A stretch of 64,000 nucleotides of DNA from Desulfosporosinus youngiae DSM 17734 (GTDB lineage: Bacteria > Bacillota > Desulfitobacteriia > Desulfitobacteriales > Desulfitobacteriaceae): NCBI RefSeq assembly GCF_000244895.1, contig NZ_CM001441.1, positions 1,942,226-2,006,225 on the forward strand. Reading direction: 5' to 3'. The notes beneath the pieces were generated by a model. The model searched no databases. It was not told the origin of the DNA and saw only the letters and a program-made list of their open reading frames with translations. Numbering within the stretch: position 1 is the first letter of the stretch; each line of letters starts with the position of its first letter. Position numbers and translations under genes: made by a program. Positions 4,680 to 50,408 of the stretch are shown in pieces.

Positions 4680-5304
4680 GGAGGGTTATACTTAATGCCG
4701 TGCCTGTTGATGGATTTCATAAGCGGTCCATCATACGGGCATTTATTTTTTTCTATAATTCTAAAACAACCCTATCCGGGTACTTTATGCCAGCACTGGC
4801 TCTTTCAAGTTTTATCAGTGATGACGGATGCCCCCTGGGGGTGGTTGTCCGAGAATCGTACGCGCGTAAGATTCTCGGACAAGCGAGGTAAAATTCAGCA
4901 AAAGAATATAAAAAATATCTTATAGACAGCGCCCCGTGCAGTTTTCCCAGATCTGGTGGCATCGGTTCAGCGACTAGGCCTTTGGGATTGCTCATAGCAG
5001 AACCAGTTGCTGAAAGCAGGGGAGTATCGTTGTGGTTGACACAGAATCTGTGAGTTATGCAGGGCGGTTTATACAGGGTTTGAAATACAGCTGGTGGATA
5101 TGTTTGCGTGAACGAGCCATACAGAAACGGTCTGTCTGTTGGAAAGGGCGTAAAGCTTTATAAATAAAGGGTTTTGACGTGTTTAATGTTGTAGATTTAA
5201 TGAGCTATCTTTGAGAAGGAAAACAGGCTCTTGACAAAAACGATTGTAAATATAACCATTTAGAGTAAGAGTTTTGTAGAAATATCAGCCAAGAATCGAA
5301 AGAG
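4680..5304 (+). other. Intergenic stretch, 625 bases
   Basis: I see no convincing gene here. Only the palindrome at 4845-4882 stands out. A TTGACA-like -35 element at 5233-5238 could drive the next ORF, but the -10 element is poor. Base composition becomes AT-rich after about 5150, which marks the left margin of the following island. Confidence 0.5.
4845..4882. repeat. Palindromic repeat, TACGCGCGTA family, copy 1
   Basis: A 38-base inverted repeat with a single arm mismatch around the core TACGCGCGTA. The arm is TTGTCCGAGAATC. It belongs to a five-member family (also near 13302, 34513, 35717 and 48306) that keeps the core exactly while the outer arms change in a compensated way. There is no T-tract, so it is not an ordinary terminator. 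Confidence 0.8.
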
Positions 5305-13301: not shown

Positions 13302-13349
13302 GGGCTTGTACCAAGAATCTTACGCGCGTAAGATTCTTGGTACAAGCCC
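13302..13349. repeat. Perfect 48-base palindrome, TACGCGCGTA family, copy 2
   Basis: The 24-base arms are exact reverse complements with no loop and meet in TACGCGCGTA. The outer arm is GGGCTTGTACCAAGAATCT. It is identical to the palindrome at 35717-35764 and, like it, lies about 80 bases before a DUF3102 start codon. Confidence 0.9.
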
Positions 13350-13426
13350 GGGAGAAGACGTTTCATCCTTGTGGGGATAATCCCATATTATGTGGATAAA
13401 TGAAGAGAAAGGATTCGTGAAATAAG

Positions 13427-13555
13427 ATGAGGGATATTATCCCGGAGCGTACGCCGTTTTTAATCGCGGCTGAAAGAGGAAGTCGGCTTTTCCCAGAACC
13501 GGGCTGAAAAATTGATGCGCCTTTACGAGGAGTTTGGGAGAGAACAGTCCTAACT
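13427..13555 (+). pseudogene. DUF3102 gene relic with large internal deletion
   Basis: The first 16 codons match the intact DUF3102 gene at 35842 almost exactly. The sequence then jumps to the EVGFSQNRAEKL region, skipping about 39 codons, and the joint puts the rest out of frame. The copy ends near REQS. The order palindrome then DUF3102 is kept from the intact locus. Confidence 0.85.
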
Positions 13556-13774
13556 TCTGAACATAAATATTTTAGTTCTTTCCTGATAAAAAACAAGCGT
13601 TATATCATTAACTTGGGATAAATATTACGCTGCTAAACGCTGTTCGGGAAGTAACCCATTGTAAAATAATGACTGCTTCCGTTTTTTATACTATAATATT
13701 CATTGAACTTCAGTCTAATTATAGACGAAAAGTACCGGACAAACAGGAATTTGTAGAGGTAAGGTGTAATTACA

Positions 13775-14311
13775 ATGATTGAAACAGAAAGATTAACAAT
13801 GCGACCATTTAATGAAGACGATTTGGACATTATTATGAGTCTTTATTCTAATGAAGAAATAATGAGATATATGCCAAATGATGTCATGAATGTAGAGAAA
13901 GCTCAAAAGCATTTAAATAAAGTTATATATGATTAGGACGAGAAACCACAAGTGAATTTTGAAATGGCAGTAATTTTGAAATATAATCAGAAAAAAATCG
14001 GTCGCTCTAGAATTCACTTAGATTATGAAACTGATACAGCAATGATTGGTTGGTTGCTATTAAAAAAAGAGTGGGGTAAGGGTTATGCAACAGAAATGAC
14101 ACGGGCTTTAATTGATTATAGTTTTGATGTATTAAATGTGCATAGAGTTTGTGCATTATGTCACCCTAAAAATATCGGCTCATGGAGAGCTTTAGAAAAA
14201 TGCAATATGCGCAGGGAAGCATATTTTATACAAAATTGTAAATATGTTAAGGATGGTAATATAATATGGGAAGATGAATTGGAATATGCCATATTAGAAT
14301 CAGAAAGATAA
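13775..14311 (+). pseudogene. GNAT acetyltransferase interrupted by an in-frame TAG
   Basis: The frame starts at ATG 13775 with MIETERLTMRPFNEDD and continues to TAA at 14309-14311, interrupted by one TAG at 13934-13936. Beyond it the same frame keeps the RimJ/RimL-type acetyltransferase core: IGWLLLKKEWGKGYATE for acetyl-CoA binding, then NVHRVCALCHPKNIGSWRALEK. Total length without the stop is about 178 residues, normal for the family. There is no other lesion. It may be a recent nonsense mutation. Amber decoding is a possibility to test, since some Desulfitobacterium strains carry pyrrolysine genes, but TAG is also an ordinary stop in this window. Confidence 0.8.
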
Positions 14312-15457: not shown

Positions 15458-15481
15458 ATGCATTCTATTCGTTTAAGATAA
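15458..15481 (+). CDS. Leader peptide MHSIRLR, probable antibiotic sensor
   Basis: A seven-codon ORF with a perfect AGGAGG at 15441-15446, ending in TAA. It closes with Arg-Leu-Arg, the +X+ motif at which ribosomes stall in the presence of macrolides, and is close to the opening of the ErmDL leader (MTHSMRLR). A terminator and an ABC-F resistance-type gene follow. This matches translation-controlled attenuation known for Erm and ABC-F genes. It is too short for standard gene callers. Confidence 0.7.
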   Translation: MHSIRLR

Positions 15482-15619
15482 GCTGGCAATAAAGAAGCGG
15501 TAAGATCATCCATGGTGGGCTTTTTTGTTGTGCTTATTTTGCGAATTGAGACATAGATAGGGGTGAAGTGTAACCATTTGAGGTTATACCTTTTGGCCAA
15601 TGTCTCTTTGACGTGATAT

Positions 15620-15660
15620 GCAGACTAAAAGCCCGCACTGCGGATTTTAGTCTGCTTTTT
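15620..15660 (+). terminator. Attenuator terminator upstream of the ABC-F gene
   Basis: An 11-base perfect stem (GCAGACTAAAA with its complement) closes a 14-base loop and is followed by at least five T. It lies between the leader peptide and the ABC-F coding sequence, so it would stop transcription unless the leader RNA refolds. A further small hairpin (GCAGGG with CCCTGC) occurs at 15765-15782. Confidence 0.75.
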
Positions 15661-15825
15661 ATTGCCCTATATGGAATTGCCGGTTTGGATAGTGTGCAAG
15701 TATTTTCATAATATGGAGGAACATTTATGTATTATATATTCATATAATCCTTCCTGCTCAAATCGCAGGGTTTTCCCTGCGAACAGGTCAATGAAAACAT
15801 GCGATTTTCGACAGGAGGAACGATC

Positions 15826-23410: not shown

Positions 23411-23440
23411 AATTTCTTATTATATCTATAATTTCATATG

Positions 23441-23645
23441 GGGATGAGTGCGATTTTTCATAGGAAAAATCTTAAGGGAAGTCAGTCGAAGCTGACGCGG
23501 TGCCCGCCACTGTAGAAGGAAGTTAACTCACCATAATGTCACTGGAAAGCTATATCCGGGAAGACGGGAGTTAATGAGGAACTTAAGCCAGGAGACCTGC
23601 TCATGTCCCAGATTCGAGATAACCTACGGGATGTTAGGGAGGTGG
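23441..23645 (+). promoter_or_regulatory. Cobalamin (B12) riboswitch
   Basis: The conserved core is clear. GCTGACGCGGTGCCCGCCAC at about 23492-23511 continues with TGTA, and the B12 box GCCAGGAGACCTGC is at 23587-23600. A downstream terminator at 23684-23720 gives the usual off-switch. It precedes a peptide/nickel-type ABC transporter operon, so that operon should be repressed by adenosylcobalamin. This makes cobalt, or a cobalt-carrying compound, a reasonable guess for the substrate. Confidence 0.93.
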
Positions 23646-32393: not shown

Positions 32394-34244
32394 ATGGATA
32401 GTATGAAAAAGAAAATCGCAGCGCTCTGCGCAATTCTGGCGCTGATTATCCTTTTACCTGCGGCGTTGTTTTTCAAGACAGCAACTGCCGTCCAGCCACC
32501 CAAGCCCAGCAACGGTGTGCTAGACTTAAGCAATTGGTCTTTCGAGAAGGATGGAGTTGTCAGTTTAGCCGGTACCTGGTCCTTTTACTTCAATCGGTTT
32601 CTGACCCACGAAGACTTTGTGCAGGGCCATGACCTTCTGTCGACTCCAACCCCTCTTCAAATACCCAGCACCGTAAAGAGTATGGAGGGCGTCAAGCCAT
32701 TTGCGGACAACAAATTCTACGGCACTCTGAGGCTGGTTATAAAACTGCCTGAAGGCAAGCAAACCTATGGCCTGAGAACAGATATCATCCTGACATCCTT
32801 TAAACTTTACATTGACGGCAACCTGCAGGGTGAAGTGGGCAAAGTCGGAACCAGCGGGGAGAATAGCCTTCCTTATTACAATATCCTCACCACCTATTTT
32901 AATCCGGAAAGTAATGAAGTGGAGCTCATTTATCATACAGCGGATTTTACAGCCCAAGATTGTACCATGGTGGCACCCAAAATCGGCTTGGCTGCCCAGA
33001 TTTCCCGGGAAGGACAGTTGGGCTTAGGCCGGGATCTGTTCCTCTTTGGTATGCTGCTCATCATGGCCATCTATCATTTTGGCCTGTACATTATGCGGAC
33101 AAAGGATCGGGCACCCTTGTTTTTCGGAGTTTTTTGTCTCTTGTTTGCACTCCGCATGTTATTGGTGGGAGAGCGGTTTTTGCCAAGTCATTGGCAGCTG
33201 AGTTTTTTTGTATACGGGCGGATGGCTTATTTATCTGTGTTTATTGGTTTCTCAGCTTTGTGCGGATTCTTGCATTATGCTTTGGCCGGCCTGCTGGCCC
33301 GATGGTTCGTGAGAATCAGTATTGCTCTGGGATTGCTGTCCGCTGTTTTCATCCTCTGGGTTCCTTACAGTTCTGCCGACAGGCTATTGATGATTTATGC
33401 TGTCCCGGCAATTGTCTTATTAGGCTATGCCATGATGCGTTTGGTTATTGGCACCTGGCAGGGGGTTCCGTTCGCCAGAATCGTCTTGCTGGGTTTCGCT
33501 GTTTTAGGGGCTACCTTTATCAATGATTTTATTTACCAAATCACCCTGGCCAATACTCCTTCCCTGATTCCCCTCGGTGTGGCAGTCTTTACCTTTACCC
33601 AGGCTTATACCTTGTCGGCCAGATTTTCCGGTGCCTTTACCAGGGCTGAGCAGCTCACTGTGGAGAATAAAGCTATTTTGGCAGATCTTAAGTATATGAA
33701 CACTAAGCTTGAATCCCTGGTTCAGGAACGGACTGCCGATTTAGAGAATGCTCTGAAGGAAATGGAAGTCATGTCTAAAACAGATTATCTGACCAAATTA
33801 CCGAACAGACGGTCGGCCTTTACCAAAATCAAGGAGCTTATTGAACAGAAAAGGGACTTTTACATTTGCCTGGCGGATATTGATCATTTTAAAGAGATTA
33901 ACGATCAGTACGGGCATGTTAAAGGGGACGAAATCCTGGTGCTGTTATCAGGAATACTAAGCACAGCCATTGGCGACTGTGGTTTTGTCGGCCGCTGGGG
34001 CGGCGAGGAATTCCTGATAGTCTTGGAGACGGCGCAATTGGATTCAATTCCGGACAAGTTTAATGAGATTCGCAGAGCTGTGGAGGAATACCGGTACCCA
34101 GACATCGGCAAAGAAATTACTATGACCTTTGGCTTATGCCAATACCGGGAAAACTCTTCCTTGGACATTCTGATCGCCAAGTCCGATGAGGCTCTCTATC
34201 GGGGTAAAATGGCCGGAAGAAACCGGTGTATTATTGCTGTGTAA
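32394..34244 (+). CDS. 7TM-DISM receptor diguanylate cyclase
   Basis: About 616 residues. A signal/anchor helix is followed by a beta-rich extracellular 7TMR-DISMED2-like domain to near residue 200, a seven-helix membrane domain (near 215-405), a coiled-coil segment (TVENKAILADLKYMNTKLES) and a C-terminal GGDEF domain with GRWGGEEF near 533-540. The GGEEF active-site motif is canonical for cyclic-di-GMP synthesis. The RxxD inhibitory site is not obvious. ATG 32403 is an alternative start. The likely role is to sense an outside ligand and control motility or surface growth. Confidence 0.88.
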   Translation: MDSMKKKIAALCAILALIILLPAALFFKTATAVQPPKPSNGVLDLSNWSFEKDGVVSLAGTWSFYFNRFLTHEDFVQGHDLLSTPTPLQIPSTVKSMEGVKPFADNKFYGTLRLVIKLPEGKQTYGLRTDIILTSFKLYIDGNLQGEVGKVGTSGENSLPYYNILTTYFNPESNEVELIYHTADFTAQDCTMVAPKIGLAAQISREGQLGLGRDLFLFGMLLIMAIYHFGLYIMRTKDRAPLFFGVFCLLFALRMLLVGERFLPSHWQLSFFVYGRMAYLSVFIGFSALCGFLHYALAGLLARWFVRISIALGLLSAVFILWVPYSSADRLLMIYAVPAIVLLGYAMMRLVIGTWQGVPFARIVLLGFAVLGATFINDFIYQITLANTPSLIPLGVAVFTFTQAYTLSARFSGAFTRAEQLTVENKAILADLKYMNTKLESLVQERTADLENALKEMEVMSKTDYLTKLPNRRSAFTKIKELIEQKRDFYICLADIDHFKEINDQYGHVKGDEILVLLSGILSTAIGDCGFVGRWGGEEFLIVLETAQLDSIPDKFNEIRRAVEEYRYPDIGKEITMTFGLCQYRENSSLDILIAKSDEALYRGKMAGRNRCIIAV

Positions 34245-34278
34245 GGCTGGTTTCACAACCTCAGATGATTGTGTAGAA

Positions 34279-34380
34279 ATGGATAAGTCACAAAGCAGGG
34301 GAGGAGGGGGCAGAGCATTGCTGAAAGCCAAACTGATGCTGGTTACCGCCTCCGCCGGCTATGGAAAAACCACTGACGTC
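34279..34380 (+). pseudogene. MalT/LuxR-type regulator, Walker A fragment
   Basis: The frame reads LLKAKLMLVTASAGYGKTTD, the P-loop opening of MalT-like STAND transcription activators. It then enters the R2 repeat, so only about 34 codons survive. Confidence 0.6.
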
Positions 34381-34501
34381 CTGAAACATATCCTGATTGG
34401 GAGAAAGAATAGGCATATAACAACAAAGGCTTTCCCGAGATTTATTTCTCCCGGGGAAGCCTTTGTCTCATTGGAGGTCGGCATAGTAAGAATTTAAATA
34501 G
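34381..34501 (+). repeat. R2 repeat with internal hairpin, copy 2
   Basis: Near-identical to 18366-18493. The hairpin arms here are AAAGGCTTTCCCGAGA-like and TCCCGGGGAAGCCTTT-like. The palindrome of the TACGCGCGTA family begins only 12 bases later. Confidence 0.75.
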
Positions 34502-34512
34502 TCAGTTTTTCG

Positions 34513-34558
34513 GGCATGTACCAAGAATCTTACGCGCGTAAGATTCTTGGTACATGCC
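34513..34558. repeat. Perfect 46-base palindrome, TACGCGCGTA family, copy 3
   Basis: Arms are exact reverse complements around TACGCGCGTA. The outer arm is GGCATGTACCAAGAATCT, so one base of the arm differs from copies 2 and 4 with a matching change on the other side. Confidence 0.9.
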
Positions 34559-34604
34559 AGGAGAAGGTTGTCACTCTTGCCAGGTTAATTCAGTTGTATG
34601 ACAG

Positions 34605-34712
34605 CTATTTTATTTCTTGCTCCAGATCAGAAAACAAATCGGAGTCAAAAAATTCCCGTACACTGATTCCGAATCCGTCGCATAGTTTCTTAATAGTTAC
34701 AATTCCCGCATT
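34605..34712 (-). pseudogene. XRE regulator, C-terminal fragment
   Basis: The minus-strand frame reads NAGIVTIKKLCDGFGISVRE then FFDSDLF and ends LEQEIK before TAG. This is the last helix and tail of a Cro/C1-type repressor (TIxKICDGLGIxxxEFF). The first half of the domain is missing. Confidence 0.65.
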
Positions 34713-34750
34713 GTAAATAAATTAATGGCGGGGCAGAAGGAGATTTTAGC

Positions 34751-34938
34751 ATGGGAAAAATATCTCTGGATGAAAGGCTGAGAAGAGAAACAGAAAAGCT
34801 GCACAAGCTTGTTGAGGAAGCCATAAAAAAGGCATCCCGATCATACAGGATGAGGCAGTTATGACACAGAACCGCAAAGTTGATGCCTTGGTGGTCAGAA
34901 TACAAAGAGAGCTGGGGCATCCCATGAGCAGGAAGTAA
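34751..34938 (+). pseudogene. Spo0E-like aspartyl-phosphate phosphatase with a one-base frameshift
   Basis: ATG 34751 with AAGGAG at 34737-34742 opens MGKISLDERLRRETEKLHKL. After a run of six A at 34825-34830 the homologous frame shifts, and the remainder reads GIPIIQDEAVMTQNRKVDAL then VVRIQRELGHPM. NRKVDALV replaces the family's SQELDxLI signature. Adding one A restores a 62-codon gene of normal length. It would encode a phosphatase that removes phosphate from Spo0A. A sequencing slip in the A-run, or slippage during expression, would also fit. Confidence 0.65.
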
Positions 34939-34976
34939 GATATCGAAATGAATAGCTTATTTTTTTCATGAAACAG

Positions 34977-35025
34977 CGATTTGCGGAAATCCCGGCAGGA
35001 ACTGTGGTTGGATGTTGAGAAAAAG
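34977..35025 (+). pseudogene. Short DUF3102 relic
   Basis: TTTGCGGAAATCCCGGCAGG and GATGTTGAGAAAAAGACC match the coiled-coil segment of the DUF3102 gene (compare 18525-18567). Only about 50 bases remain. Confidence 0.6.
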
Positions 35026-35041
35026 ACCCTTTATCGTGAAG

Positions 35042-35082
35042 AAAACTGCCGGCAGCTATGACCCTGCCGGCAGTTTCTTTTC
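35042..35082 (-). terminator. Terminator of the DUF1659-DUF2922 operon
   Basis: A 13-base perfect stem (AAACTGCCGGCAG and its complement), then T-rich bases on the minus-strand side. It lies just after the DUF2922 stop. Confidence 0.75.
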
Positions 35083-35093
35083 CCTTTGAACAG

Positions 35094-35333
35094 TTAAGCC
35101 TGGGGAGGGTCGTAAAGGTCATTCGTTGTCGTATCGATGACCTTTATATCCCGTATTCCCGTCAGGGCCCCACTGGGTGTTAAGAATATATCGCTGTCAA
35201 TAAGGGAATTCATAGCAGCCATAACCTCAGCCGGCTGCAGGTCCTCCTTTGGATTATCAATAGTAATGGCAAAGGTCTTGCCCCCTGCGGTACTAAAGGT
35301 TAATCTGACAACCTTGGTTGATGATAGGGCCAT
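35094..35333 (-). CDS. DUF2922 small protein
   Basis: A 79-residue protein. STKVVRLTFSTAGGKTFAIT, then IDNPKEDLQPAEVMAAMNSL and a C-terminal TTNDLYDPP are the family's hallmarks. DUF2922 genes are usually next to DUF1659 and YvrJ genes in Bacillales and Clostridia, as seen here. GGAGG lies before the start. Function unknown. Part of it recurs as a relic at about 13215-13280. Confidence 0.85.
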   Translation of the reverse strand: MALSSTKVVRLTFSTAGGKTFAITIDNPKEDLQPAEVMAAMNSLIDSDIFLTPSGALTGIRDIKVIDTTTNDLYDPPQA

Positions 35334-35374
35334 TTTGTCCCTACCTCCTCTTTCATAGATTTAGTTTCTGAGGT

Positions 35375-35599
35375 TTATTCCTCAGTGAGTTCAACAGTCT
35401 TCCGGTTGAGTACGTCCAGCACCGGATTCTGGGACAGGCCGAATAAAGTATAAGCCGCATCGTAAAGAGCCTGTTCCGAGGCGTCGAACCTCAGGTAATT
35501 CAGGCTTTTTTGTTTCTTGATTGGTGCGCCCAGAGCGGTGAGTCCGGCCTGGTAGACAACGACCAGGGCCGAATTCAAAGGAGTAGCTTGCACAGCCAT
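35375..35599 (-). CDS. DUF1659 small protein
   Basis: A 74-residue protein MAVQATPLNSALVVVYQAGL with later FDASEQALYDAAYTLFGLSQ. Start ATG 35599 follows a GGAGGAGAGGG site. The open frame extends 30 codons upstream, but these are not family-like. It forms an operon with DUF2922, separated by 41 bases. Function unknown. Confidence 0.85.
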   Translation of the reverse strand: MAVQATPLNSALVVVYQAGLTALGAPIKKQKSLNYLRFDASEQALYDAAYTLFGLSQNPVLDVLNRKTVELTEE

Positions 35600-35716
35600 T
35601 ACCCTCTCCTCCTTTCTCAGGATTGATAGGATGTTTGAAGTATGACCGTCTGTATAATGTATGAGTTGTCCTCTCAAAAGGTTACACAAGCTTCCTGCTT
35701 GTCATGACATAGATTA

Positions 35717-35764
35717 GGGCTTGTACCAAGAATCTTACGCGCGTAAGATTCTTGGTACAAGCCC
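35717..35764. repeat. Perfect 48-base palindrome, TACGCGCGTA family, copy 4
   Basis: Identical to copy 2 at 13302-13349. It lies in the divergent space between the DUF1659 gene (minus) and the DUF3102 gene (plus), an ideal place for an operator. There is no T-tract. Confidence 0.9.
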
Positions 35765-35841
35765 GGGAGAAGACGTTTCACCCTTGCCGGGATAATCCCA
35801 TATGATGTGGATAAATGAAGAGAAAGGATCCGTGAAATCAT

Positions 35842-36663
35842 ATGGGGGATATTATCCCGGAGCGTACGCCGTTTTTAATCGCGGCTGAAATTAATATCAT
35901 CAAACACCAGACCGAGAAAATGGTGCTTAACAACTTTATCGAAATCGGCCGGCGGCTGGCAGAAGCTAAGGGTCTGATCAAGTATGGGGAATGGGGCAAG
36001 TGGCTGAAAGAGGAAGTCGGCTTTTCCCAGAACCGGGCTGAAAAATTGATGCGCCTCTACGAGGAGTTTGGGAGAGAACAGTCCCCTTTAGGCGACGCCG
36101 GAGTCTTGGGCCGGGAACTGCCTAATTTGAGCTATACTCACGCCCTTATTCTTCTGGGGGTGCCGGAAGAGGACCGGGCGCAATTTATCCGTGACATAGA
36201 TATTGAAAGTATGACCACCCGTGAGCTGGAGCAGGCAGTTAATGAGATGAAACAGTTCCAAAAGGAAAAGGCAGGTCTCAAGGAAGCCCTGGCTGAGGAA
36301 AAGGAGAAAAACACCCGGCTGGCCCAGGAGCGGGACAACCTGAAAAAAGAAACCGGTGAATTGCGGAAGTCTAAGGAAGAGCTACAGCAGGATGTTGAGA
36401 AAAAGACCATGGAGAATAAGAAGCTGGTGGAAAATTCGAATTTAAAGAGCTACCAAAGGGTGAGCAATCAGCTGGCGGCTGCCCAGATCAAGCTGCTCAC
36501 GTCTAAAATCGCTTTTTGCTTCGAGAGCTTGGAGAAAGCGTTCAAGGAACTGAGTTATGAGATGGATTTGCTGGCAAAGGTTGATGCCCAGGTGCATGGG
36601 GAGTATGCGAAAATGCTGAATGGGTTTTTGATTAAGACCATGGAGGAGAGGATGGGGAAGTAG
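35842..36663 (+). CDS. DUF3102 coiled-coil protein
   Basis: A 273-residue protein. The first 110 residues are the DUF3102 domain: FIEIGRRLAEAKGLIKYGEW, then EVGFSQNRAEKLMRLYEEF. A long charged coiled coil follows (about 125-200) and then a helical tail ending TMEERMGK. DUF3102 proteins occur on Firmicute mobile DNA and resemble ParB/KorB-like DNA-binding helpers, though the function is not established. AAAGGA lies 13 bases before the ATG. Pieces of this gene recur at about 13427, 18516, 34977 and 48372. Confidence 0.8.
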   Translation: MGDIIPERTPFLIAAEINIIKHQTEKMVLNNFIEIGRRLAEAKGLIKYGEWGKWLKEEVGFSQNRAEKLMRLYEEFGREQSPLGDAGVLGRELPNLSYTHALILLGVPEEDRAQFIRDIDIESMTTRELEQAVNEMKQFQKEKAGLKEALAEEKEKNTRLAQERDNLKKETGELRKSKEELQQDVEKKTMENKKLVENSNLKSYQRVSNQLAAAQIKLLTSKIAFCFESLEKAFKELSYEMDLLAKVDAQVHGEYAKMLNGFLIKTMEERMGK

Positions 36664-36679
36664 AAGGGGGGGAGTTGTA

Positions 36680-36989
36680 AAGGTTTGACCGGCATGAATT
36701 GAGCGTGATCCTCTGCGGATGTCACAAATACTATACTGCAGGCTGACGTTGACTTAGATAGCCGTATTTGTCTGGCGGTTTCAAGACCGCTCAGCTTTTT
36801 CATGCTGTTATTAAGAAAGAGGAGGTCAAAAGCCAATCCCTGCTTTTCAATTTCTGCGAGAAGCTCCTCGCCGCTGCTGAATTCGTAGATATTAAATAAA
36901 ACATCCTTTTCTTCTTCGTATAGATGAATTAATGCTTCCAATAAGCGACGGGACAAAGGCCTGTCATCGCAAATGCCGATGGTAAACAA
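36680..36989 (-). pseudogene. AgrA/LytTR-type response regulator, truncated receiver
   Basis: The minus-strand frame begins MFTIGICDDRPLSRRLLEAL. The expected phosphoacceptor position is Asn (LLFLNNSMKKLSGLE instead of LLFLDxxM). The protein loses homology after EDHAQFMPVK and then only runs antisense through the DUF3102 gene. The LytTR DNA-binding domain is gone. Both lesions argue for a non-functional remnant. Confidence 0.7.
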
Positions 36990-37027
36990 AATATCTCCTC
37001 CAACATCAGGGGTTTTGAGTCATTTTA

Positions 37028-37065
37028 GGACAAATAGTCCAATATGTCAATAGGACTAAGCGTCC
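37028..37065 (+). promoter_or_regulatory. Twin operator GGAC-N5-GTCC upstream of the XRE gene
   Basis: Two short palindromes of the same form, GGACAAATAGTCC at 37028-37040 and GGACTAAGCGTCC at 37053-37065, are spaced 25 bases centre to centre in the divergent region between the regulator relic and the XRE gene. They are likely binding sites of the XRE protein. Confidence 0.6.
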
Positions 37066-37092
37066 TAAGATATACTTGCTTTGGTGATGATA

Positions 37093-37305
37093 ATGCGCTT
37101 AAAAATACGTGATGTTCGAGAAGATCATGATCTAACCCAGCAGCAAGTTGCACAATACCTGATGTGTGATCAATCTTTGTATTCTAAATATGAGCGAGGA
37201 GAGCGTGATGTTCCGCTGAATATCATGATTAAACTCGCCCAGTTTTATAAAACCAACATTGACTATTTGGTTGGGCTTACTGAAAATAAGAAACCTTATC
37301 GCTGA
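37093..37305 (+). CDS. XRE-family transcriptional regulator
   Basis: About 70 residues, essentially one Cro/C1 helix-turn-helix domain. LKIRDVREDHDLTQQQVAQY, SLYSKYERGERDVPL and FYKTNIDYLVGLTEN follow the standard five-helix order. ATG 37093 is used; a TTG and another ATG lie just upstream. The twin palindromes before the gene suggest autoregulation. The last 25 codons recur at 18836-18913. Confidence 0.85.
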   Translation: MRLKIRDVREDHDLTQQQVAQYLMCDQSLYSKYERGERDVPLNIMIKLAQFYKTNIDYLVGLTENKKPYR

Positions 37306-37715
37306 GTGTACGCCTTTGATGAGTATAGTAGAAATTCCAACCCTACTTATTATCTTCGTGAAGGAATATAATACAGTTTGTCAAGTCACAGCATAAAAGT
37401 GTGCTTTTGTTTAGATGATAAGGATATTATTTCCAACATGCATTGAAACGAGAACAAATGTTTGGTACAATGTGTATAATATTTAATTAAACCTATCGAA
37501 TTCGATAGGTTTAATTGTTGCTGGTGATGAGGATCTGAGTGGATAAACCAGGCTTGTGTCGGAGCGTAAAGTATGAGATTTCCTACGTTGAGGAAACTAA
37601 AAATATTAAAGCAAAAAAGGATTATTGTGGAGCCATAGAGAAATTCACCAAGATATAACAAGCATGAAAATGTATCCAATATCCCTGCCGCTATTAGAGA
37701 ACGGGGGAAGATAAC
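37306..37715 (+). other. Intergenic stretch with a 30-base perfect palindrome
   Basis: ATTAAACCTATCGAA and its exact complement form a loopless palindrome at 37486-37515. A TATAAT-like element lies just before it at 37475-37480. This may be an operator for the TcmP operon. No gene is supported. Confidence 0.5.
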
Positions 37716-40835: not shown

Positions 40836-43424
40836 TGACCGGAAGACCGGAAAGACCGATTATTTTATTTGGAACACCCAACCCAGCCAATAGAAACAAC
40901 AAAGGTGGCGGTGCGCCTAAAATAAACTTTCCCTCACATTCCCAGACAGGTTGTCCGTCTTGAACCCAAACTGGCGGCTCTCCAAGATGCAATCGATCAT
41001 AATAGAATCCTGATTCAGCAGTCACCCACAGGAATTCAGCCGGAGAAGACCCTTGTCTTTGAAGTTTCCGGCGATTTAAAGTCTTTTTATACAGCCGTTA
41101 AAAATCTTGGTGATGATGTAGAGTGGATATTTGATTCGTCGGCGGATATAGCTGTTTCGGATGATTTTTTTGTCTATAAGGAAGATAAAAAGACAAAGAA
41201 GAGTTCCAGAGATGAAAGGAAAACCGCGTTTTCCGGCAAGGTATATTGTGTATTGGCCAATAACCGCGCCCTTGAGGAAATTTTATCATTATGGAAGCAA
41301 TTTGCCAGAAATCCCAATATGAGTTTCCCTAAAGGTAAAACTGGTTTTAAGGATGTTTTTAAGCAGCTGATCGATATCCACTTTTGGGGTTATAAAGAGC
41401 GTATCGAAGAAACCGGAATTTTAGAAGCCTGGCAAGATGATTTGCAGTTAGAGCCTGAATTAAGCACAGTAAAATGTGAAATTGAACTGTTTTACCGAAA
41501 ATCAAAGGAAATTCAGATACAACGCGAAGATAATTTAACGGCACTAATCCGTGAAGCAGGTGGCAGTATATTGGGGCGTAGTGTGATTGACAAGATTCAT
41601 TATCATGCACTATTGGCATCACTGCCGCGGCAAATCGTTGAAGACATTATTGCCAGGCGTGAGGTGGCGGTTGCTGCCGCCGAACAAATCATGTTTTTTC
41701 AGTCTGTCGGACAAAGTGTGATTATTTCAGACGATAATATTGGGGACAGTACTCTGCAGGTTAACATGCCTGTCACGATTAATGATGAACCGATTATTGC
41801 CTTATTTGACGGATTGCCTCAAGAAAACCATCCTTACCTGAACGGCTTATTGAACGTTGACGATCCTGACAATTTTGCTGTCCATTATACTGTACCGGCC
41901 CGAAAACACGGAACCTCTATGGCTTCTCTGATTGCCCATGGGGATCTGAATAATATAATGCATCAAGTCACCCATAAGATTTATGTTCGTCCCATTATGA
42001 AATCCGTTAATGTGGGTGGCAGAATTTGGGAAGAAATCCCCGGCGATATTTTAATCGTAGATAAAATTCATGAAGCCGTACGCAGGCTTTTTGAACCACT
42101 TGCAGGGCGTGTCGCTCCCAGCGTGAGGGTTATCAATCTTTCCATTGGTTTTCCGAGCAAAATATTTGACAGATTAATGAGCCCTTTAGCTCGTCTGCTG
42201 GACTGGTTAAGCTATCAATACAGAGTCCTGTTTATCGTCAGCGCAGGAAATCATTTAGAGGACATCGATGTTGCAATGTCCTTTGCTGATTTTTCCGGCC
42301 TTACAGAGGAAGAGCGGGATGTTGTTATCGTTCGGCATTTAAATGACAACGCTCGCATACGCCGCTTGCTGGCACCAGCAGAAAGCGTCAATGCTTTAAC
42401 TGTGGGAGCGGCCTTTTCTGATGAATCGTCTTTCACACCGCTTGCGCGGCAAGTTCTTCCTTGCTCAGCCGGGATGGTCAGTCCGATCAGCGCCCTAGGC
42501 CGTGGTTTGAATAATTCCATTAAGCCTGACATCATTTTTGATGGGGGCAGAAATACCTTGATGCAACATCCGCTAGACGGAACAAAACTGCCTTGGCGGG
42601 TCTCGTTAACGAGAGCGCCGGGCACTGTTTCGGCAGCTCCCTTTAATATAGCAGGAGGCTCTGAAAAAATTATGTATTCCTATGGGACAAGCAATGCTGC
42701 CGCACTGACCTCTCATGAATCATCCCGCTGTTACGATACATTAGTGGATGTTTTTGATGGAGCGGGCGAATCATTGCCTCATGATTATGCCGCATTGCTA
42801 ATCAATGCCATGTTGGTGCATGGAGCGGAGTGGGGGGAGTTATTCGAGAAATTCAATCCGGCTCTCGGCAACCCTCCCAGAGCTACGGATTATATGTACA
42901 GATTTTTTGGGTACGGAAAACCGAATATTGAAAAGGCAGTTGAGTGTGCCAGGAATCGTATCACTTTAATCGGCTATGGCGAATTAAAGGATGGGCAGGC
43001 TCACCTTTTCGATTTACCGCTGCCATTCGAAGAATTCAGCCGCGAAAAAATATTGCGCCGCTTGACGGCGACAATGGCGAGTTTTTGTCCAATCACGCCT
43101 GCGCGTCAATCCTATCGCTCCGCCCATTTGTGGTTTTCAATAGAAGGTGCAAAAAAGCACTTGATTGACAAACGCATAAATGCTGATTGGACAGCGGTAA
43201 GAAGAGGAAGTTTACAGCATGAGATTTTTGAAAATAATCAGATCGTTGTTTGGGGCGATGACGATGGAATTCAGCTTAAAGTGAATTGCGCCAATGTTGC
43301 TGATGATAATTTCGCAGGTTCTGTTCCCTATGGATTGATGGTTTCCTTTGAAATTGACAGTGCTGTTGATATTGATGTTTATACTCGGGTTGCGACAAGG
43401 ATTAGTCCAAAGATTACTCTATAA
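40835..43424 (+). pseudogene. S8 subtilisin-like peptidase with a one-base frameshift near its start
   Basis: ATG 40835 with AAGGTG opens MTGRPERPIILFGTPNPANR. After CCC at 40941-40943 this frame stops at TGA. The homologous frame continues through RLEPKLAALQDAI into the long frame that ends at 43424. Removing one base would restore a protein of about 862 residues. The catalytic triad is intact: Asp in IIALFDGLP, His in KHGTSMASL, Ser in YGTSNAAALTS, plus the oxyanion Asn in VSAGNH. The lesion could be a recent mutation, a sequencing slip, or expression from an internal start. Confidence 0.8.
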
Positions 43425-43426
43425 TT

Positions 43427-45093
43427 AGGGCTTGCTAACGAGTGCTAAACGCCAGGGAAAAACCTGATTTTACAAGGGTTTTTGGGCATTTACGTCGAAT
43501 CTTTAGTGCAAGGAAATATGAATTTAGATTAAAAAAACCGTGCACTTGGAGGTTGAAAATGTACCGTAAACCGAGTCCCCAGCTAACCATAGATGATTTC
43601 ATCCTGCCTTTTTCGGGGAAACTGGATCCCGAAAATCGTTGGGTTCAATTAGCTAATATAATTCCTTGGGATGAGTATGAAAAAGAATACGCCCATATGT
43701 TTCCGAGTGATCGTGGCAATGTGGCCAAACCGGTCCGTATGGCACTCGGTACGTTAATCATCCAAGCTCGCTGCGGTTATACTGACCGTGAAACGGTTCA
43801 GCAGATTACGGAGAATCCTTATCTCCAATGGTTCATAGGCCTCAAGGAGTTTCAATTGACTCGTCCTTTGACTCCAGTCGCCCTGGTGAAATTTCGCAAG
43901 CGCTTTAAGAAAGACCGCATGGCTAAAATCAACGAGCGCATTGCTTTAGCTGAGCGGGCGGCAAAAACAACTGAAAAGGAAGCCGAGAAGAACGATGATG
44001 ATCAACAAGGACCTAATCTTCCGGATGCGGATAAGGAAGAGAAGAAAACCCCTGCTGACTCTGATTCGGAGGAATCCAAACCGAATCAAGGTATGTTGAT
44101 CCTTGATGCCACCTGCACACCGGCCGATATAAAATATCCGACAGACCTCGGACTGCTTAACGAATCCCGCGAGAAACTGGATGAGATCATTGATACGCTT
44201 CATAAAGCGAAGGGTAAAGCAACCAAACGGCCGAGAACTTACCGTGAAAAAGCGAGAAAAGCTTATCTGAGTGTGTCTAAACAGCGGAGTCCGAGAAAGA
44301 AGCAACTTAGAAAAGGCATCAAGCAGCAATTGCAATATTGTAAAAGAAACCTTCGCCACGTTGACCAAATGCTGAAAGAAATTCCCTCAGGCTTTGAAGC
44401 CTTAAGCAACCGACAAGTCAAGTTATTGGAAACCATTCGAACCGTAATTGAGCAGCAGGAAACAATGTATAAGACAAAACAACATCAGATACCGGATCGA
44501 ATCGTCAACCTCTATCAGGATCATGTCCGACCGATTGTACGCGGCAAAGCCAGTGCCAAAGTAGAATTCGGGGCTAAGGTAGCCATAAGCATCGAGAAGG
44601 GATTCTGCCGCATCGAAAAATTGTCTTGGGACGCGTTTAATGAAGCAGAAACATTGATAGATAGCGTAGAGCGTTACAGAGCCCGTACTGGATGCTATCC
44701 TGAGGCGGTGCTGGCCGACAAGATATACCGTAACCGCAAAAATCTGGCGTATTGCAAAAACCACAACATCCGGCTCAGCGGTCCCAAACTAGGCAGGCCC
44801 TCAGGAGATGCCCTGAAAAAAGTAGAGAAGGCCATTGAACGGATGGATGCCAAGATGCGTAATGCGGTAGAAGGCAAGTTTGGCGAAGGTAAAAGGAAAT
44901 ATGGCCTTGATCGTGTTTATGCTAAGTTGAAAGAAACAGCAGAGTGCATGATTAGCATGCAATTCTTTGTCATGAACTTGGAGCATAAGCTCAGAGTTCT
45001 TTTTGTCCAAATTTTGAAGAGGTATTTTCAAATTACAGATATTGGTGTATTTGCGTAATCGAACGAATAAAAAGGATTCGGTTAGCAAGCCCT
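43427..45093 (+). mobile_element. IS1182-like insertion sequence
   Basis: Terminal inverted repeats AGGGCTTGCTAAC (left, 43427-43439) and GTTAGCAAGCCCT (right, 45081-45093) are perfect. AATT occurs directly outside both ends (43423-43426 and 45094-45097) and could be a 4-base target duplication. The element landed at the last codon of the subtilase gene, whose TAA is preserved, and is complete. Confidence 0.85.
43559..45058 (+). CDS. IS1182-family transposase
   Basis: About 499 residues. The N-terminal DUF772-like domain is seen in FSGKLDPENRWVQLANIIPW, then MALGTLIIQARCGYTDRETV. A basic central part and a DDE-type C-terminal nuclease follow: MLILDATCTPADIKYPTD has the first acidic residue, and ADKIYRNRKNL and RNAVEGKFGEGKRKYGL the later ones. 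GGAGG at 43546-43550 sets the ATG. The gene is complete, so the element may be active. Confidence 0.88.
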   Translation: MYRKPSPQLTIDDFILPFSGKLDPENRWVQLANIIPWDEYEKEYAHMFPSDRGNVAKPVRMALGTLIIQARCGYTDRETVQQITENPYLQWFIGLKEFQLTRPLTPVALVKFRKRFKKDRMAKINERIALAERAAKTTEKEAEKNDDDQQGPNLPDADKEEKKTPADSDSEESKPNQGMLILDATCTPADIKYPTDLGLLNESREKLDEIIDTLHKAKGKATKRPRTYREKARKAYLSVSKQRSPRKKQLRKGIKQQLQYCKRNLRHVDQMLKEIPSGFEALSNRQVKLLETIRTVIEQQETMYKTKQHQIPDRIVNLYQDHVRPIVRGKASAKVEFGAKVAISIEKGFCRIEKLSWDAFNEAETLIDSVERYRARTGCYPEAVLADKIYRNRKNLAYCKNHNIRLSGPKLGRPSGDALKKVEKAIERMDAKMRNAVEGKFGEGKRKYGLDRVYAKLKETAECMISMQFFVMNLEHKLRVLFVQILKRYFQITDIGVFA

Positions 45094-45118
45094 AATTAGG
45101 CGTTAAGAAAGGATCAGA

Positions 45119-48129: not shown

Positions 48130-48305
48130 GTATTATGAAGACCTGGCATACTGGTGATGAGATGGCATTGGAAGAGTGGGCCGGCTCGGGCAATGCAGAG
48201 TTCGGTGCTCAGGAATTCCCATCCTGGAGTGCCGAATCCTTTTCAGAGAAGGTTTTGGTCCGCGGCCGTGACATACGTTTAGCTTTTGCGGGGAGCCTAG
48301 CCCGG

Positions 48306-48345
48306 CCTGTCCGAGATTTGTACGCGCGTATGATTCTCGGATAAG
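48306..48345. repeat. Degenerate palindrome, TACGCGCGTA family, copy 5
   Basis: The core TACGCGCGTA and the outer CCGAGA...TCTCGG arms are kept, with mismatches between. Arm sequence resembles copy 1 at 4845. Confidence 0.75.
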
Positions 48346-48371
48346 CAGGATAGAGGGACTTCTCGCCTTCG

Positions 48372-50262: not shown

Positions 50263-50270
50263 ACAACATA

Positions 50271-50388
50271 GTTACTCCAAGCCGGGATGGTCCTAAAGGT
50301 TTCGCCCATGGACACCGGCCAGAACAGATAATGTTCTCAGGGTATGTTTGGAAACGAATATGCCTTCCGACTTTGAAAAGGAGTGAAC
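50271..50388 (+). promoter_or_regulatory. Moco/Tuco-type riboswitch
   Basis: A closed structure of about 118 bases. P1 pairs GTTACTCC (50271-50278) with GGAGTGAAC (50380-50388). Inside are GCCGG/CCGGC and GTCC/GGAC stems with CCTAAAG and CATGG, close to the 11-base tetraloop receptor, and a hairpin with a GAAA loop (TTTGGAAACGAA). A receptor plus GNRA loop is characteristic of the molybdenum-cofactor RNA motif. A terminator and a MoeA gene follow. I did not align it to the published consensus. Confidence 0.65.
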
Positions 50389-50408
50389 GTGGGGGTTTAT
50401 TTCGTATG

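Follow-up and report, generated by a model that had tools for sequence, protein, structure and literature searches.

Why does one ten-base sequence, TACGCGCGTA, stand at the centre of five palindromes in a single stretch of the Desulfosporosinus youngiae chromosome, and what lies behind the symmetry of the arms around it? The core occurs five times in the 64-kb window (the whole stretch of DNA analysed, 64,000 nucleotides), against a mean of 0.01 expected from 100 dinucleotide shuffles. The first-pass annotation of this window, made from the letters alone, had reported five copies with a common core, and exactly five were found, with core start positions at 4859, 13321, 34531, 35736, and 48321 (Table 1). 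Its description of them as perfect loopless palindromes holds for copies 2, 3, and 4 and fails for copies 1 and 5, in both of which the sixth base from the dyad is mismatched. The compensated arm change that it had seen between copies 2 and 4 and copy 3 is real: a T-to-A substitution at arm position 20 with its mirror on the opposite arm. Apart from this one mirrored change, the perfect scattered copies in the window have the same arms as the site at 35717-35764.

Table 1. Palindrome copies and associated features in the window (positions counted from its first base).
Feature	Position	Strand	Description
Copy 1	4842..4885	no strand	Imperfect; 19/24 arm pairs in a 48-bp frame
Copy 2	13302..13349	no strand	Perfect 48-bp palindrome without loop, preceding a DUF3102 relic
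Sigma-K-like -10, CATATTATG	13384..13392	+	58 bp from dyad of copy 2
Broken DUF3102 relic (locus L213)	13427..13574	+	Alignment covers codons 1-16 and 55-89 of the intact gene
Copy 3	34513..34558	no strand	Perfect loopless 46-bp palindrome; bears the mirrored T-to-A change
DUF1659 gene	35375..35689	-	Divergent from the DUF3102 gene
Copy 4	35717..35764	no strand	Perfect 48-bp palindrome without loop; proposed as cognate site for the DUF3102 gene that starts at 35842
Sigma-K-like -35, TCACC	35778..35782	+	Consensus as tabulated in PMC3416734
Sigma-K-like -10, CATATGATG	35799..35807	+	58 bp from dyad of copy 4
Intact DUF3102 gene	35842..36663	+	PF11300, E 3.2e-53, followed by a predicted long helix
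Copy 5	48304..48347	no strand	Imperfect; 18/24 arm pairs in a 48-bp frame

Copies 2 and 4 had been described as identical and as lying about 80 bases before a DUF3102 start. They are identical, and each lies 77 bases before an ATG, but only copy 4, which is intergenic between divergent DUF1659 and DUF3102 genes, precedes the start of an intact DUF3102 gene; copy 2 precedes a relic from which codons 17-54 are missing. The two copies lie within a common 197-bp stretch of 94% identity. Across the whole chromosome (5,660,978 bp in one contig) the core is found 14 times, compared with once for a reversed control pattern, and 9 of the 14 cores fall within 224 kb including the window. One of the 14 (locus L013; loci are numbered with L and genomes with G) looks like a chance occurrence, since its arms pair at just 10 of 24 positions.

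The first-pass annotation had named lack of enrichment and of linkage to any gene family as the outcome that would speak against it. Our genome-wide search found the palindrome enriched and linked to DUF3102. Among 60 genomes, 25 contain both DUF3102 and the palindrome, 7 DUF3102 only, 1 the palindrome only, and 27 neither (Fisher p = 1.5e-9); the palindrome-only genome (G047) has a single, imperfect site (L181). The same four classes within the genus number 16, 5, 0, and 8 (p = 3e-4), and the counts of palindromes and DUF3102 matches per genome are correlated there (Spearman 0.84). The survey genomes have up to 40 DUF3102 matches each. In the D. youngiae genome, a PF11300 search with an E cut-off of 0.01 gave 46 matches, of which 16 are complete or almost so and 30 are fragments. 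Of 21 model sites (E up to 1), 4 precede one of these matches at a distance of at most 260 bp (p = 1.2e-7), the other 17 being upstream of none. With 30 of the 46 matches fragmentary or broken, turnover in the family seems to be rapid. We also observed that the palindromes cluster in one stretch per chromosome in three single-contig chromosomes (1.90-2.13 Mb in G000, 2.42-2.56 Mb in G003, and 1.91-2.04 Mb in G007), each cluster including a DUF3102 gene with a TACGCGCGTA-type site.

The DUF3102 protein itself offers few clues. It has no other Pfam domain over the cut-off and no ParB domain, its residues 1-143 have no credible sequence relative in the PDB (best E 1.1), and an AlphaFold model built from two sequences is too poor to show a DNA-binding fold (mean pLDDT 55.9, pTM 0.24). 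Titles and opening lines of abstracts in the literature yielded no function for the family. Beyond the chromosomes, DUF3102 is present in Bacilli in three plasmid records and, as distant relatives detected by tblastn, in six phage records; a peptide-pattern search of viral contigs confirmed no member.

From D. youngiae and related genomes, we gathered 85 palindrome places, most of which have a common 22-bp arm. In named genomes, 31 of 32 stretches with the extended core belong to Desulfosporosinus and the remaining one is a contig labelled as a Bacteroidales MAG. A covariance model, searched with filters that lose weak matches, detected the family in 30 of the 100 relatives searched and missed it in all 27 that lie outside the order; its distribution across the order is patchy. 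Contrary to what had been supposed, the core is not fixed: TACGCGCGTA is the version of one subfamily, and related palindromes in other genera of the order alter the centre while keeping the outer TGTCC. Their inner bases differ from one another and are mirrored or nearly so, the six bases before the dyad being, for example, TGAGGC in L164, GAAAGC in L168, GAATGC in L171, GTAAGC in L173, and GAAGGC in L174.

Arm symmetry is strongly maintained across this family. Among 33 distinct sequences (726 cells), 96.4% of cells pair, a percentage biased upward in absolute terms by gathering sequences with patterns and scores that favour pairing, and the apparent invariance of arm positions 7-10 was imposed by the search pattern. 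Both sides are changed in 138 cells, compared with a mean of 46 in shuffles; 6 cells have become G-U pairs through a change on one side only, and 26 are unpaired. Sequences within four pair changes of the main version show 10 distinct mirrored and 15 distinct one-sided changes, and the mirrored changes include some transversions, which a route through G-U pairs cannot yield in one step. Arm length can also change with mirror symmetry, as judged by eye from GTACCAAG and GTCCAAG arms.

A second regularity is the position of the palindrome relative to a promoter. In Bacillus subtilis, the sigma-K consensus is given as KCACM and GCATANNNTA in a table of PMC3416734. By match to a form of this B. 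subtilis consensus alone, sigma-K-type promoters were assigned in 23 of 39 DUF3102 leaders, or 20 of 36 after near-copies were collapsed, where 0.01 would be expected. At 10 DUF3102 loci from five genera, drawn from 16 with any upstream hairpin, the distance from dyad to -10 is 57, 57, 58, 58, 58, 58, 59, 59, 60, and 62 bp; the remaining six have a short, looped, or terminator-like hairpin that is placed differently or has no recognised promoter nearby to measure from. The distance from the palindrome to the protein domain, unlike that to the -10, varies from 117 to 146. Seven new loci have the dyad 54-59 bp from the -10, and in L136 and L137, which are outside the 16-locus list, it is about 52-53 bp away. 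An exact -10 at 54-63 bp accompanies 15 of the 85 sites (1.1 expected) and 8 of 29 best-per-genome sites, in a scan that picked a different palindrome in L162 and for which L181 was too weak to be scored. An operator of DUF3102 would be expected to keep a fixed distance to its promoter, as the palindrome does at the 10 loci and at the seven new ones.

Many intact DUF3102 genes have instead, or as well, a loopless or nearly loopless palindrome of about 26-36 bp within the coding sequence, in the loop before the motif NLxYxQA; examples are GGTCAAATTCGTCAGC with its mirror in L125 and TCAAATTCGGAATC with its mirror in L123. An outer TCAAATT is largely conserved; the inner bases change symmetrically, and the encoded residues change with them. 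A coding score of at least 11 is reached in 20 of 47 loci with a readable upstream side and in none of 50 shuffling rounds. Ten of the 16 intact D. youngiae genes have a coding site, four an upstream site only, and two a weak site; the intact gene of the window, with copy 4 upstream, has no coding palindrome (best score 4.0). In three DUF3102 genes on Bacilli plasmids, quasi-palindromes with scores of 7, 8, and 9 lie at the corresponding coding place, as does a short palindrome with 8-bp arms in a Paenibacillus phage gene. Only the place of these is suggestive, since such low scores can arise by chance in 1.7-kb stretches.

The upstream and coding sites tend to replace each other. In a discovery set of 48 loci, 2 have both, 12 upstream only, 18 coding only, and 15 neither, with the upstream side unreadable in 1; 10 of the 15 in the neither class have a weaker coding palindrome scoring 7-10. 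The validation set comprised 80 further loci plus 4, of which 83 were scored (L294 was excluded). At a coding threshold of 11, these fall into 7 with both, 12 upstream only, 43 coding only, and 21 neither (p = 0.031), and at a coding score of at least 7, which shuffled coding stretches reach in 1.35 of 72, into 8, 11, 59, and 5 (p = 1.2e-5). Seventeen validation loci are near-copies of earlier loci or of each other, leaving 66, among which a coding site (score at least 7) is found in 0 of 7 loci with a site at the promoter position and in 55 of 59 others (p = 4e-7), the promoter position being a range of 53-63 bp that had been widened after validation loci at 53 and 54 bp were seen; with the original range of 57-62 bp, the counts are 0 of 6 and 55 of 60. 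Counting any upstream hairpin and applying the strict coding threshold, the 66 new loci divide into 7 with both, 9 upstream only, 34 coding only, and 16 neither, and this exclusion is not significant (p = 0.14) because ordinary looped terminators then count as upstream sites. On a protein tree of 108 genes, in which 60 of 105 inner branches are unresolved, the coding or upstream state is clustered with at least four changes, so the Fisher p values overstate the independence of what are few events.

The coding and upstream sites both carry CAAATTCGTCTGC in L128 and TCGCCATC in L241, and in both loci the upstream site lies away from the promoter position. In L127, a coding site is accompanied by a looped upstream hairpin, and in L024 and L244, where both kinds of site are present, their inner sequences are unlike.

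Nearly every DUF3102 gene examined has a site either centred about 58 bp upstream of the -10 of its own sigma-K-like promoter, a type active in the mother cell late in sporulation, or in its coding sequence just before NLxYxQA. The retention of the site in one of two places, the upstream one at a fixed distance from the promoter, points to a function, and because it can lie either ahead of the promoter or within the gene, a role at the level of DNA is more likely than one at the level of RNA. On balance we consider it probable that the palindrome is a cis-acting DNA site of the DUF3102 family, carried by each gene and bound by the DUF3102 protein. Against it stand the 17 D. youngiae model sites that precede no DUF3102 match, the unlike sites of L024 and L244, and the clustering of the two states on the tree. 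The protein would most likely bind as a symmetric dimer or higher multimer, and binding could either control the protein's own gene or nucleate a complex on the DNA. The conserved outer bases may serve as the common contact, with the variable, mirrored inner bases giving each paralogue its own address. The scattered TACGCGCGTA copies in the window would be extras of the cognate site of one subfamily, either dispersed copies or remnants of the DUF3102 site of the window itself, spread, as can be traced in part, with duplicated DUF3102 leaders, a small inverted-repeat element, and other rearrangements.

A more specific version of this proposal is possible, though we hold it with clearly less confidence: DUF3102 would be a large paralogous family of DNA-binding proteins, each requiring a private palindromic address upstream of its gene or within it, in which case the address dictates part of the protein sequence, with template switching keeping it symmetric. 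If addresses are indeed private, a new one could arise in a single mutational step and drive paralogues apart. A self-carried palindrome in one of two fixed places provides a concrete handle on the role of DUF3102.

The first-pass annotation had taken the compensated changes to mean that symmetry is selected or that copies are rebuilt as a unit. Symmetry is indeed strongly maintained, and the data also support a third reading, template switching, which had been left out. Three broken DUF3102 copies (L138, L143, and L140) have coding palindromes with arms of 29-33 bp, compared with 14 bp in the intact gene L133. In the outer part of the arms, L138 and L143, which are related and lie 4 kb apart, differ by one mirrored and no unmirrored change, and L143 and L140 by five mirrored and one unmirrored; the mirrored substitutions fall in parts of the arms not shared by the intact gene. 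Stops or frame breaks make selection on the products of these copies unlikely, so a mirrored change alone is no proof of selection. Perfect stems are reported to be generated and preserved by template switching (PMC8794818), and the mirrored substitutions in the broken copies fit what replication template switching would be expected to leave. By copying arm onto arm, it would help to make the arms perfect and may even be the cause. At an intergenic copy in L054, the arms around position 2159 reach 29 bp, with the usual right flank AAGGAG mirrored on the left, likely a footprint of the same process. Intact DUF3102 genes, which are open to selection, and broken copies, which should not be, both show the mirrored pattern, making the family a natural test of whether mirrored hairpin changes come from selection or from template switching.

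The palindrome could instead be a selfish repeat of the REP or MITE kind, spread as a single-stranded DNA hairpin by a transposase and with DUF3102 as merely one of its hosts. We consider this unlikely, while noting that it would account for the 17 model sites in D. youngiae away from DUF3102, for the crowding of 9 of 14 cores into 224 kb, and for six loci at which the palindrome adjoins terminal repeats matching a full insertion sequence of the window (both ends in L005; one end each in L018, L043, L049, L073, and L075). That insertion sequence (43422-45098) is complete, with a transposase of 538 aa containing DUF772 and DDE_Tnp_1_2 domains, and L005 has at 1818-2148 a non-coding element of about 330 bp with the palindrome in its middle, bounded by the same terminal repeats. 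None of the copies in the window is flanked by such repeats. Comparison of orthologous sites, suggested earlier as a way to see insertion or excision, showed no movement of the palindrome as a unit at nine sites without terminal repeats: when their joined flanks were searched against 60 genomes, with at most five candidates scored per genome in nearly all rows, the matches were one-sided, were rearranged, or came only from the source genome, with no clean insertion. Nor would a selfish repeat be expected to keep a fixed distance to the DUF3102 promoter or to be nearly absent from genomes without DUF3102. Copy 2 sits before a relic with the same leader as copy 4, and no vehicle could be traced for the other scattered copies whose flanks were compared.

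An origin of the 48-mer in phages or plasmids was rejected. No blastn match was found in 50,697 phage records, and plasmids gave only weak matches in nine records of Acinetobacter and Salipiger (E 0.2 to 10). A single match in IMG/VR looks like chance: it falls within a coding sequence, and its arms cease to pair.

With a sigma-K-like promoter at a fixed distance downstream, the site might also be bound, in place of DUF3102, by a mother-cell regulator such as SpoIIID or by some other factor active at sigma-K promoters during sporulation. SpoIIID recognises the motif RRACARNY, which the outer arm GGACAAGC fits; the window variant GTACAAGC breaks it. A regulator of this type leaves unexplained both the version in coding sequence, with its outer TCAAATT, and the difference in inner sequence from paralogue to paralogue, and we judge it quite improbable. 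The SpoIIID motif is presented as a logo in PMC517825.

We give still less credence to a palindrome that acts as RNA, as a hairpin ending or insulating transcription. Copy 2 is predicted to fold well as RNA (-38.4 kcal/mol, z -12), and some DUF3102 loci without a palindrome have ordinary looped hairpins upstream (such as L097, L099, and L116). The first-pass annotation had noted no terminator features; by eye none of the five copies is followed by a T-run on either strand, and a scan of 33800-37400 for intrinsic terminators (a GC-rich stem with a run of T after it) listed neither of the two copies in that stretch. The genes flanking copy 4 are divergent, a site ahead of the promoter would not be part of its transcript, and a terminator would not be expected to have a coding version. 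The pattern of change also argues against RNA pairing, with 138 of the 726 cells mirrored and so few one-sided changes to G-U. No Rfam family matches at the palindromes at gathering scores.

Resolution of hairpin telomeres, as at the sites of phages N15 and PY54, is hardly credible and was set aside, because no resolvase domain was found and the centre differs in relatives: although TACGCGCGTA at the centre of a long palindrome is identical to the ten-base core that PY54 pal (a perfect 42-bp palindrome) and N15 telRL share, as described in PMC3540006, the resolvase domain PF16684 was found in none of 28 genomes (D. youngiae included; 17 of the genus and 11 of the order) in a search that matched 1 of 14 control genomes, the chromosome, a single contig of 5.66 Mb, contains the core 14 times, the centre is a different one in many related palindromes from outside the genus, and the 48-mer has no blastn match in the phage records, so we take the identity as coincidence.

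Several other features came to light. A second, unrelated perfect loopless palindrome of 32 bp with the centre GAATTC lies at 37485-37516 of the window, and a longer version of it with 26-bp arms is found around position 670 of L020 in a relative. Long palindromes with the centre TCTAGA and T-rich tails, perfect or nearly so and terminator-like, occur around 1014 in L081, 7713 in L051, and 319 in L072. Loopless hairpins may be frequent in Desulfosporosinus. The stretch at 13761-14301 of the window, with a reading frame that looks interrupted, has 88.7% identity to a Niallia taxi (Bacilli) plasmid, suggesting recent transfer. The window also contains a match to Rfam sRNA_1300, described from Enterococcus, at 15458-15662 (78.1 bits, gathering score 48.8), a cobalamin riboswitch at 23429-23618, and a Moco riboswitch at 50263-50399.

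The proposed DUF3102 site resembles several known systems without coinciding with any. It shares its ten-base centre with the telomere sites of N15 and PY54 (PMC3540006), from which it differs in that no resolvase domain was found here and the centre is not conserved in many relatives. Like REP/RAYT systems and bacterial MITEs, it consists of dispersed palindromes near a multi-copy family, some of them beside the terminal repeats of a resident insertion sequence; unlike these, the arms are perfect and loopless, and no target duplication was seen by eye. Rickettsia palindromic elements are likewise palindromes within protein-coding genes, but the DUF3102 coding palindrome is confined to one fixed place in one family, other members of which have an upstream site instead. 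Autoregulatory operators are likewise symmetric and lie a set distance from the promoter of the gene that encodes their regulator; the difference is that DUF3102 members may place the site in the coding sequence, with arms of 13-24 bp and a short spacer or none. Finally, ParB-parS and other partition systems of plasmids, phages, and chromosomes pair a protein with a palindromic site, a parS lies inside the B. subtilis spo0J gene, and DUF3102, too, is found on plasmids and in phages of Bacilli. In contrast to ParB, DUF3102 lacks a ParB domain and is only proposed to bind DNA, and its sites differ between paralogues, accompany a family with up to 40 matches per chromosome, and stand beside a sigma-K-like promoter.
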